A stretch of DNA of 64,000 nucleotides from Hypomesus transpacificus (taxonomy: Eukaryota > Chordata > Actinopteri > Osmeriformes > Osmeridae). The stretch is from the NCBI RefSeq assembly GCF_021917145.1, contig NC_061081.1:6384777-6448776 (forward strand). Direction: 5' to 3'. Position numbers and translations under genes: made by a program. The notes beneath the pieces are model-generated. The model was not told the origin of the DNA. It saw only the letters and a list, made by a program, of their open reading frames with translations, and ran no database searches. Below are positions 58,701 to 61,700 of the stretch, piece after piece (the stretch's first letter is position 1; each line of letters starts with the position of its first letter).

Positions 58701-61700
58701 AGGGTGATTTACTGCCCTCTGTGCATGTGTGCATGTGGGCGTGTGTGCAGCATGCAGTGGTATATGTTTCTGGTACACTGGTCCTGCTGTTGTGGAGAGC
58801 CTTCCAGAGCAGCAGAAGCCATAGCTGCTATACTAACGCTGTCTGTGAGCCGCTCAAACCAGCCCCTCACGGCTGTGTGTTCCCGTACAGGCGTTGGAGC
58901 CTGTGTGTTCAGGTTTGCGGTCACCACGGAGACCGAACGCTGCATTGTCGGAAGCTGTTCCTTCTTAGTTACCATTGGCAACCTGAGTGTCCTGCTGCAG
59001 TTTAGGACACCTAGAGGTGAGGACTTTTGAAGTGTATCGACCTTGCAAACACAGCCGGTTCATACTTGATATAACGTCATCATAACACTAGTGGTGGTGT
59101 TACCTGGACAGCATGTTGTTTGCTTCCTGTTTCCACCAGAGCTGCAGGACTTCCTGGACCAACTGATGGGAAGAGCCAGCTGCAGGAGGCAGACATCCCA
59201 AGACTCATCCCCCCTGCGCGGTCATGTAGGTGACCATTAGCCACCATCCCATAATCTCATCTCCAGGTGGGTAAAGGCTTTGCTGACCTGACTTCGCTCT
59301 TCTCCCCTCCAGTTCCATGGGCATTTATCACAGCAGCAGAACATGCTGCAGGACTACCTGAGGACAGCTACATACCAGAAGGCCATCCTGCTCAACGAGG
59401 CTGACTTCAGAGACAAGGTGACCCCTCAGACACCTGTGTTAACTGGCCTCTAGCTGGCCTCACAAGGCGTCTACCCCCTAGGGGTTCTACCTTAGGTTGT
59501 CTACCCAGCCTCTAGTTGAACATGACAGGTTCTGTACCTGCTCTGTGTGGGATGATGATGATACTGTTTGGTCTCCAGGTGGTTCTGGAAGTGGGCTCTG
59601 GTTCAGGGATCCTGTCCTTATTCGCCCTGCAGGCAGGAGCCAGGAGGGTGTACACTGTCCAGACGAGCCCCGCTGTAAAGTACACTCAGGTACCCACTAT
59701 CTGCTACACAAGTAGCAAGTACACAAATAGGTCAGCAATAGCAAGTGTAGAGTCGAGTCTTCCGTCATACCTTCCATCCTACCCTTCCTACCCTTCTTAC
59801 CCTCCCTCCCTCCCTCCCTCCCAGAAAAACAGTTTGGGCCAGAATAAGCCTCAAGTCATTTCTCCTTAAGAATGTCAAGCCATGCAAAATAACAGGAGGG
59901 GGAAGGGTGTGTGTGCGTGCGTGCGTTTAGGCACTATGTGGGCTGTCATCCAGGGTTCTGTGGTTTTCTTCTCGCTTCTAGGAGACTCACCATGAGGGCG
60001 AGGGTAGGTGAGGGTAAGGGTGGATGCTTGGGCAGACATGAATCAGATCAGTCACTAGATTTGGGTCTCTCTCTGACAGGAGCAGTGTCCTCCTCTCGTG
60101 TCCTCTCCTCTCCCCCCTGCAGCTCCTGATGAGCAGTAACAGTGTGTCAGACAGGGTGTGTGTCCTGAAGGGCGGGGTGGAGGAGGTGTGCTGCCCCGAG
60201 CAGGTCGACATCATCGTCTCTGAGCCAATCGGATACATGCTGCTCAACGACAGGATGTTGGAGAGCTACGTCCATGCCAGGAAGTGGCTCCAACCCAACG
60301 GTGAGTCACTACCACCACCACCAACCACCCCCCACCACCCCACACCACACCAGCCCCCCCACCACCCCACACCACCACCACCACCACCCCTACCATTCTC
60401 CCCACACCATACACTAAAACCTCTCACACACACACTAAGAACTAGAGTACCAAGGTCTTATAGACTAAAAGCATGCTCTGGTGATGATAATGCCTTTTAG
60501 GATTCATGTGTGGGTGTATGTGTGTGTGTGTGTGTATGTGTGCAGGTCTCATGTTCCCGTCCTACAGTGACCTCCACCTGGCCCCCTTCACAGACGAGCA
60601 GCTCTACATAGAACACTACGCTCGTGCTAGCTTCTGGTGGGACACACACACACACACTGACAGATATGCCATTTCTTTCCACATCCCCCATCTCTTCTCC
60701 CTCCCTTCTCTTCTCTCCCTCCTTCCCCCTCTCCTTTCCTCACCTCCCCTCCTCCCGTCTCCTCTCCCCCCCTCCTCTCTCCTGAGGAGAGCTGAACTGA
60801 ATGCCAGTGTGTTAACGGAGCATGATGACCCTTCCTCTCCCTCCCTCCCTCCCTCCCTCCCTCCCTCCCTCCCTCCCTCCCTCCCTCCCTCCCTCCCTCC
60901 CTCCCTCCCTCCCTCCCTCCCTCCCTCCCTCCCTCCCTCCCTCCCTCCCACGTCTATCTCTCCTCTTCCTCTCTTCTCTCCCTTTTCTCTTCCTCCCCTC
61001 TTCCTCTCCTGTGCTCCCCTAGTGTCATGTTCCACCCCCTTCATGTTGTTGCATCTCACTCAGCAGACTAGGGGTAGTGCTGCCAGGGTATTTAGTGTGT
61101 GTGTGTGTTTGAGTGTGACAGTCTATGTAGGTTAGCACCGGGCTTTGACCTCAGCCAAGCATATTTCCTGTCGGCATAAGACGCTGGCTGCTACAGTCCG
61201 ACCCTGACGTGTCTGCCTCCTCAGACCAGACTAGACCCTCTCAGTCCCCTCTCAGTCCCTCTCTGTCCATCACTCCCCCCCCCCAGCCCCCACACCCCAA
61301 CTTAGTCCCTTCTTGTCTCTCTCCTCCCCCTCACATCCCCTCCCGCTCCTCCCTGTTCTCATTTTCCTCGTAAACAAGCACCAAACTGTTCCCCCTGTGT
61401 GCACGCTCCCCCAGGCGCCAGAGGTGTTTCTATGGCATCAACCTGAGTGGGCTGCACAGCGCTGCAGTAGAGGAGGTCTTCAGGCAGCCCATCGTGGTGA
61501 GGGGGGGGGGGGGGGGGGGGGGGGGCTGACAGGGTCTGGAGGGCCCGGGGAGGGGGAGGGGGGGGGTCTAGTGGGACAGCTCCTCCTCACTGTGTCTGTG
61601 TTCTAGGATACGTTTGACATGCAGATTCTGATGGCCAAGTCCATCAAGCACTCCATCAGCTTCACCGAGACCAAGGAGAAGGACCTCCTCAGGTACGAGC

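Follow-up and report, generated by a model that had tools for sequence, protein, structure and literature searches.

carm1l of Hypomesus transpacificus, a diverged CARM1/PRMT4 paralogue with altered active-site residues and probably little or no methyltransferase activity

The carm1l locus and its gene model

The window analysed here comprises 64,000 nucleotides of the Hypomesus transpacificus genome (NC_061081.1, positions 6,384,777 to 6,448,776). On its forward strand it carries a PRMT4/CARM1 paralogue, which runs from 57905 to 165 bases beyond the window, with the stop codon at L011:163-165, where L011 denotes the sequence continuing past the window end. The region reported in the initial annotation, 59313-60300, corresponds to exons 4-6 of this gene. 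A total of 12 exons were read from 57905 to the window end. The in-window exons encode 460 residues, which reproduces the length predicted earlier; the frame is open through all exons read, and each of the 11 in-window introns has GT-AG borders and preserves the frame. Residues are given in mouse CARM1 numbering, anchored with the SEP glutamate as residue 258. The features of the gene, which is called carm1l below, are as follows:

57905..58130 (+), exon 1: predicted start codon and start of the N-terminal domain; ATG-open frame, donor GTGAGT
58891..59016 (+), exon 2: N-terminal PH/EVH1-type CARM1 domain (PF11531); 126 bases, as in canonical exon 2
59140..59225 (+), exon 3: 86 bases versus 107 in canonical carm1 (7 codons fewer, a 21-base deletion)
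59217-59219 and 59220-59222 (+), R150 and G151 at the end of exon 3, which reads ...SSPLRGH in place of ...SSAVQYFQ
59313..59417 (+), exon 4: Y154H at 59316-59318; F153, M163 and R169 kept
59579..59689 (+), exon 5: motif I EVGSGSG (D191E, 59588-59590); TVQTS (E215Q, 59660-59662)
60123..60300 (+), exon 6: VEE (E244 kept) and the double-E loop, with E258 kept (60222-60224), M260I (60228-60230) and E267D (60249-60251)
60546..60636 (+), exon 7: start of the dimerisation arm
61415..61496 (+), exon 8: remainder of the dimerisation arm; Y335V at 61476-61478
61607..61692 (+), exon 9: beta-barrel
62792..62881 (+), exon 10: beta-barrel
63333..63470 (+), exon 11: THW loop kept, H415 at 63376-63378 and W416 at 63379-63381
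63939..64000 (+), exon 12: interrupted by the window end, plus 28 bases at L011:1-28
from L011:156 (+), exon 13: ...LDLKNLFFRYA, stop at L011:163-165

The junction between exons 3 and 4 reads CAT/gtaggt ... ctccag/TTC, which is GT-AG and lies at the same point where canonical carm1 splits YFQ/FYGY. Intron 9 is mostly filled by a 1-kb array (61701-62700) of the 14-base unit TGTGCTGTGTGCTG, present in 71 copies with 95% matches; introns 7 and 10 contain a CTCC array (60837-60949) and a TC array (63121-63321), respectively.

The top PDB match of the predicted protein was CARM1 (E 5.5e-156), and the nearest non-CARM1 matches were PRMT1 (3.6e-51) and PRMT6 (6.7e-49), each among the best 60 of 70 matched sequences. 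In Pfam, the N-terminal CARM1 domain (PH/EVH1-type, PF11531), which is unique to PRMT4, was found on residues 51-139 (E 3.8e-13; 49.9 bits versus a cut-off of 22), and the PRMT C-terminal domain on residues 287-448, likewise above its cut-off. The general methyltransferase model scored below its cut-off on the predicted protein.

Upstream of the paralogue, the window contains an LDL-receptor-type EGF exon (30.5 kb), a voltage-gated potassium (Kv) channel gene (37.7-39.4 kb) and, on the - strand, PUM3 (45.0-46.4 kb), recognised by its CPL domain and by a match to KIAA0020, which we take to be PUM3. The gene order given for spotted gar in the paddlefish genome paper (PMC8042750) is sh3bp2, vldlr, kcnv2a, pum3, carm1l, fybb. 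The local order of LDL-receptor type, Kv channel, pum3 and CARM1 paralogue matches the vldlr-kcnv2a-pum3-carm1l part of this list, where channel and receptor are assigned by type, as kcnv2 and vldlr or relatives. Because the gene order equals that of gar, the paralogue was identified as the fish gene carm1l. Spotted gar carm1l, compared by position alone, adjoins pum3, kcnv2a and vldlr in the order given in PMC8042750 and is the same gene by that measure; as gar has carm1l in the same place, the gene predates the gar-teleost split. No fish relatives were found in a scan of viral contigs.

Comparison with canonical carm1 and other PRMT genes

A search of the genome (437 Mb) with exons 4-6 yielded 11 exon matches on C22, which includes the window, and on C17, C8, C7 and C14. 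Canonical carm1 is located at C17:7744821-7752472, where 12 exons were read. Exons 2 and 4-12 of carm1 and carm1l have the same length and phase (126, 105, 111, 178, 91, 82, 86, 90, 138 and 90 bases); relative to canonical carm1, exon 3 of carm1l is 21 bases shorter and exon 1 is longer. Canonical carm1 reads SSAVQYFQ/FYGYLSQQQ, AVEAS, SEPMGYMLFNERM and THW, as in mouse, and none of the 13 active-site positions checked is altered in it. An intact canonical gene with matching exons indicates that the splice model is right and that the changes in carm1l are paralogue-specific rather than a splice-model error; it also strengthens the initial description, in which a CARM1-like paralogue has changes at the cofactor site and among the catalytic residues. 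Exon junctions restoring YFxFY had been named as a possible objection. The genomic sequence offers none: the exon end homologous to the canonical one has changed as well, and among the alternatives tried, namely other exon 3 donors and read-through into intron 3, the frame stops after four codons (VGDH, then a stop) and YFxFY is not restored.

Five other PRMT loci were fetched from the genome (carm1, a prmt6-like gene and three prmt1-like genes). Both residues of the double-E loop are Glu in 5/5 of these, and the equivalent of Met260 is Met in 5/5. YFxxY is intact in all three loci where the exon was read (carm1, the prmt6-like gene and the locus at C17:13.52 Mb, with the C7 and C14 loci not read there), and the SAM-ribose Glu in both loci where it was read (carm1 and the prmt6-like gene).

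Relative to mouse CARM1, carm1l as known from this one fish genome carries Y150R, F151G, Y154H, D191E, E215Q, M260I, E267D and Y335V, the calls of Y150R and F151G depending on an alignment anchored at the exon 3 end because the carm1l exon is shorter. F153, M163, R169, E244, E258, Y262, M269, H415, W416 and GSGSG are retained. The initial annotation had read RGHFH for YFxFY, TVQTS for AVEAS and Asp for the second double-E Glu, with GSGSG, VEE, the SEP glutamate and THW unchanged, and all of these readings hold: RGH closes exon 3 (59140-59225) and FH opens exon 4, E215Q lies in exon 5 and E267D in exon 6. To these are added here D191E, M260I, Y335V, the 21-base deletion in exon 3 and, just outside the window, the predicted loss of the C-terminal activation domain.

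Over residues 135-152, carm1l is identical to mouse CARM1 at 3/18 positions and canonical carm1 at 18/18. For the core (153-463) the corresponding counts are 203/311 and 291/311, and carm1l matches the fish's own carm1 at 208/311. The dimerisation arm (300-338) has 22 of the 39 mouse residues in carm1l, including F313, W314, G321, L324 and L327, and differs at 17; in canonical carm1 the count is 39/39. The beta-barrel of carm1l retains 88/125 residues.

In the mouse PRMT4 crystal structures described in PMC9469100, the adenosine is held by Y150, E215, E244 and M269, and the arginine site is lined by E258, E267, M260, Y154, H415 and W416. According to the PRMT2 study PMC8623767, the ribose is bound through two hydrogen bonds by the PRMT2 residue equivalent to E215, and helix X with YFxxY shuts the SAM pocket, both tyrosines holding the second double-E glutamate. 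For human CARM1, PMC11035800 reports minimal activity and poorer dimers for Y149F, and phosphorylation of Y149 and Y334 by JAK2. Since the double-E glutamates are 257 and 266 in the numbering of that paper, Y149 and Y334 correspond to mouse Y150 and Y335, and both JAK2 sites are lost in carm1l.

Five of 13 family-invariant cofactor or arginine contacts are changed in carm1l (Y150R, Y154H, E215Q, M260I and E267D) and eight are kept, in a set chosen by us from 11 positions named in PMC9469100 plus M163 and R169, which in our own alignment are the equivalents of PRMT2 M127 and R133 (PMC8623767). The set omits F153 (kept; not family-invariant) and P473, F475 and Y477, likewise named in PMC9469100, which lie outside the aligned mouse row and read L, F and Y in carm1l; with all four added, 6/17 contacts are changed. 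Enrichment of changes at the active site was not significant (5/13 versus 20/99 other family-invariant positions, Fisher P 0.16). Active-site positions thus appear not to be protected in carm1l, as distinct from being targeted, and the pattern may equal general fast change.

Beyond the window, the carm1l frame runs on as SLDLKNLFF (L011:1-28). The best terminal acceptor (polypyrimidine 12/14) leads to an exon at L011:156 that reads R-Y-A-stop, canonical exon 13 being R-Y-T-G-T-T-P, and AATAAA, of polyadenylation type, is found at L011:390. A weaker acceptor (polypyrimidine 6/14), with an exon from L011:115 and a 57-residue tail after R for which the search gave no similarity to the canonical tail, was less favoured, because the FFRYA exon is homologous to canonical exon 13 and has the better polypyrimidine tract. 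No homology to the canonical tail was detected in the next 10 kb at E values up to 10; the same query recovered its own exons on C17. The carm1l protein most likely ends ...FFRYA at 472 amino acids, without the C-terminal activation domain. Judged by its sequence, carm1l is a PRMT4 paralogue by descent and not a full CARM1, as the C-terminal transactivation domain is missing from the predicted protein.

In the 323 codons of exons 4-12, the differences between carm1 and carm1l number 81 at first, 49 at second and 136 at third codon positions. Pairwise dN is 0.23, dS 0.95 and dN/dS 0.24, averaged over both paralogues; when all nonsynonymous and half of the synonymous changes are assigned to carm1l, dN/dS is about 0.49. 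Placing the 266 differences at random (2000 trials) gave a mean of 7.7 stops and 48% identity (maximum 54%), with 0.1% of the trials stop-free, whereas the observed pair has 0 stops and 67% identity (217/323). The open frame, the intact splice sites and a dN/dS of 0.24 argue for a protein that has apparently been maintained, the purifying selection being an average over both branches and past, not present. A three-way comparison of the core (mouse, carm1 and carm1l; 314 sites) showed 203 sites alike, 91 changed in carm1l only, 2 in carm1 only and 7 in mouse only, and 11 at which all differ. In a relative-rate test with prmt6 as outgroup, unique changes numbered 17 in carm1 and 25 in carm1l (chi-square 1.5, not significant), so that a clear acceleration after duplication is unsupported; an older split, rather than pure acceleration after duplication, is possible on these counts.

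Predicted function of Carm1l

Taken together, these data describe an old fish CARM1/PRMT4 paralogue with an intact core, whose product is probably retained for its binding and either is a pseudoenzyme or has very little methyltransferase activity. The earlier suggestion of weak or altered activity, or of a pseudoenzyme, agrees with the best reading of the sequence here. The N-terminal domain, the SAM-binding domain, the dimerisation arm and the beta-barrel of a CARM1-type core are intact; the chemistry of this core is probably crippled. In the helix-X lid over SAM neither YFxFY tyrosine is left and most of the sequence is gone; Gln stands in place of the SAM-ribose glutamate, Ile in place of Met260 in the arginine pocket and Asp in place of the second double-E glutamate. 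Retained are E244 and E258, the loops of motif I and THW, the arginine at the SAM carboxylate and a large part of the barrel. Because the loss of the helix-X tyrosines is combined with that of the ribose Glu, weak SAM binding and little or no turnover are expected. On its own, Asp at 267 should not abolish activity, by analogy with TbPRMT7, for which PMC12153873 describes how Glu181Asp, equivalent to E267D, lets a strict mono-methylator gain dimethylation; in view of this result, the mono-methylation-only product that had been suggested initially is not supported. Against inactivity counts that 8/13 contacts are kept, including E258, E244, H415 and W416, and that a Glu-to-Gln change can still hydrogen-bond.

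Carm1l might instead be an active methyltransferase with an altered substrate range or product, in which Asp267 together with Ile260, Val335 and His154 widens the arginine pocket and a new linker replaces the lid. The retention of E258, E244, M163, R169, Y262, M269, H415, W416 and GSGSG, the average purifying selection on carm1l/carm1 and the shift of TbPRMT7 Glu181Asp from mono- to dimethylation (PMC12153873) are all in keeping with this, as is PRMT2, presented in PMC8623767 as a full but weakly active member whose true substrates may be unknown. It is nevertheless unlikely, since the joint loss of both helix-X tyrosines and E215, with 3/18 residues left in 135-152, hits SAM binding itself, and the single Y149F change already leaves human CARM1 minimally active according to PMC11035800.

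Still less probable is gradual loss of the gene, with selection relaxed since duplication, the frame still readable and no current role in this species. The core identity to mouse of 203/311 versus 291/311 for the canonical gene, the 91/314 sites changed in carm1l only (2 in carm1 only, 7 in mouse only) and the loss of the tail and of helix X would fit such decay, but the frame is open in all exons read, the splice sites are canonical, dN/dS is 0.24, and carm1l has persisted since before the gar-teleost split, given the gar order in PMC8042750; moreover, the branch excess may reflect age, the prmt6-outgroup counts of 17 versus 25 being not significant. Errors of assembly or of exon choice are a scarcely credible source of the altered residues: the window is rich in simple repeats, two of them inside carm1l introns, and the exon model is genomic only, but exon phases and lengths equal those of canonical carm1 for exons 2 and 4-12, the substitutions sit at several independent sites inside exons with GT-AG borders, and the exon 3 end gives no in-frame alternative.

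For a catalytically weak Carm1l kept for binding, the kept fold and the lost tail suggest, at the level of sequence, a role by binding. The activation tail required for coactivator function would be lost; since tail and N-terminal (PH) domain are both needed for CARM1 coactivation according to PMC5715347, our guess is that Carm1l is a dampener. Modulation of Carm1 by heterodimerisation or competition is a tentative proposal. Carm1l would pair with Carm1 through the kept arm; alternatively, its N-terminal domain and substrate groove would compete for Carm1 partners without methylation or activation. Pairing appears possible given the retained F313, W314, G321, L324 and L327, but 17/39 arm residues differ. 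Counting further against heterodimers, the arm is kept at 22/39 versus 88/125 for the barrel, and helix X, which is part of the dimer interface, is degraded.

The most specific version of this proposal, and by analogy a rather doubtful one, is that Carm1l would be a stand-alone vertebrate pseudo-PRMT with its partner-binding and dimerising core kept. Besides the activation tail it would be missing the SAM lid, the glutamate at the ribose, the second of the catalytic glutamates and the two tyrosines regulated by JAK2, and it would tune Carm1 by heterodimerisation or competition, as a fish counterpart of the trypanosome PRMT1 prozyme whose effect is the opposite, a dampening one. Trypanosoma brucei PRMT1-PRO, as described in PMC10908127 and PMC6299225, is likewise an inactive PRMT paralogue beside an active one, the inactivity of Carm1l being predicted, and it sets a precedent for dead PRMT paralogues governing live ones. 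It differs in being required by an enzyme unable to homodimerise, whereas vertebrate Carm1 works alone and the Carm1-Carm1l pairing is hypothetical. PDB entry 6dnz_B, listed under the T. brucei enzyme, was a weak match (E 3.2e-17).

Among vertebrate proteins, carm1l shares with CARM1/PRMT4 (mouse, human and fish carm1) the exon structure, N-terminal domain, SAM core, arm, beta-barrel, GSGSG, VEE, E258 and THW, and differs from it by eight substitutions, the replacement of 135-152, an exon 3 short by 7 codons and the predicted absence of the activation domain. The C-terminal pseudo-domains of PRMT7 and PRMT9, degenerate vertebrate PRMT modules according to PMC10908127, are fused to an active domain, whereas carm1l is a separate gene. 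PRMT2 is a weakly active type I PRMT able to act through another PRMT (PMC10908127, PMC8623767) and, unlike carm1l, keeps all conserved motifs as described in PMC8623767.

No functional report on carm1l was found among the matches listed from the open-licence literature, where the gene appears in the gene list of the gar locus in PMC8042750 and the same string of letters also denotes a mouse floxed allele. carm1l is already named; a separate vertebrate pseudo-PRMT gene would be new, set against the known pseudo-modules in trypanosomes, PRMT7 and PRMT9. If carm1l is indeed a natural, selected and catalytically weak CARM1 without a tail, loss-of-function studies of fish Carm1 have left a modulator out of account, and the carm1/carm1l pair would be a test case for a homodimeric enzyme gaining a regulatory dead partner after duplication. 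It would also provide a natural Glu-to-Asp product-specificity change, which the cited literature describes as an engineered mutation.

Flanking sequence

A second copy of the carm1l promoter region, of exon 1 and of part of intron 1 lies about 8.6 kb upstream (49075-49685 and 49822-49944 versus 57636-58245 and 58569-58699), with 96% over 611 bases. The exon 1 copy (49344-49569) differs at 2/226 bases, both synonymous, keeps the donor GTGAGT and could, judging by this, serve as an alternative first exon. Its divergence is lower than that of the 5' flank (2/226 versus 10/269), though not significantly so (P 0.07). Reading-frame fragments at 57333-57701 (-) and 63645-63851 (-), one of which overlaps the edge of the duplication at 57636, are presumably non-LTR retrotransposon frames, as they look like such frames by a YADDTQLYL motif. 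Two tandem genes lie directly downstream of carm1l (L011:1441-2094 (-) and about L011:3650-4290 (-)); they read like HSP30-type small heat-shock proteins, which we assume them to be.

Between PUM3 and carm1l, flanked by both exon 1 copies, is a receptor-type gene (50713-54997 (+)), in which at least four SRCR domains are accompanied by one immunoglobulin domain; in gar, the list of PMC8042750 has no such gene between pum3 and carm1l. The SRCR stretches at 51928-52763 and 53602-54431 are 89% alike and represent a tandem duplication.
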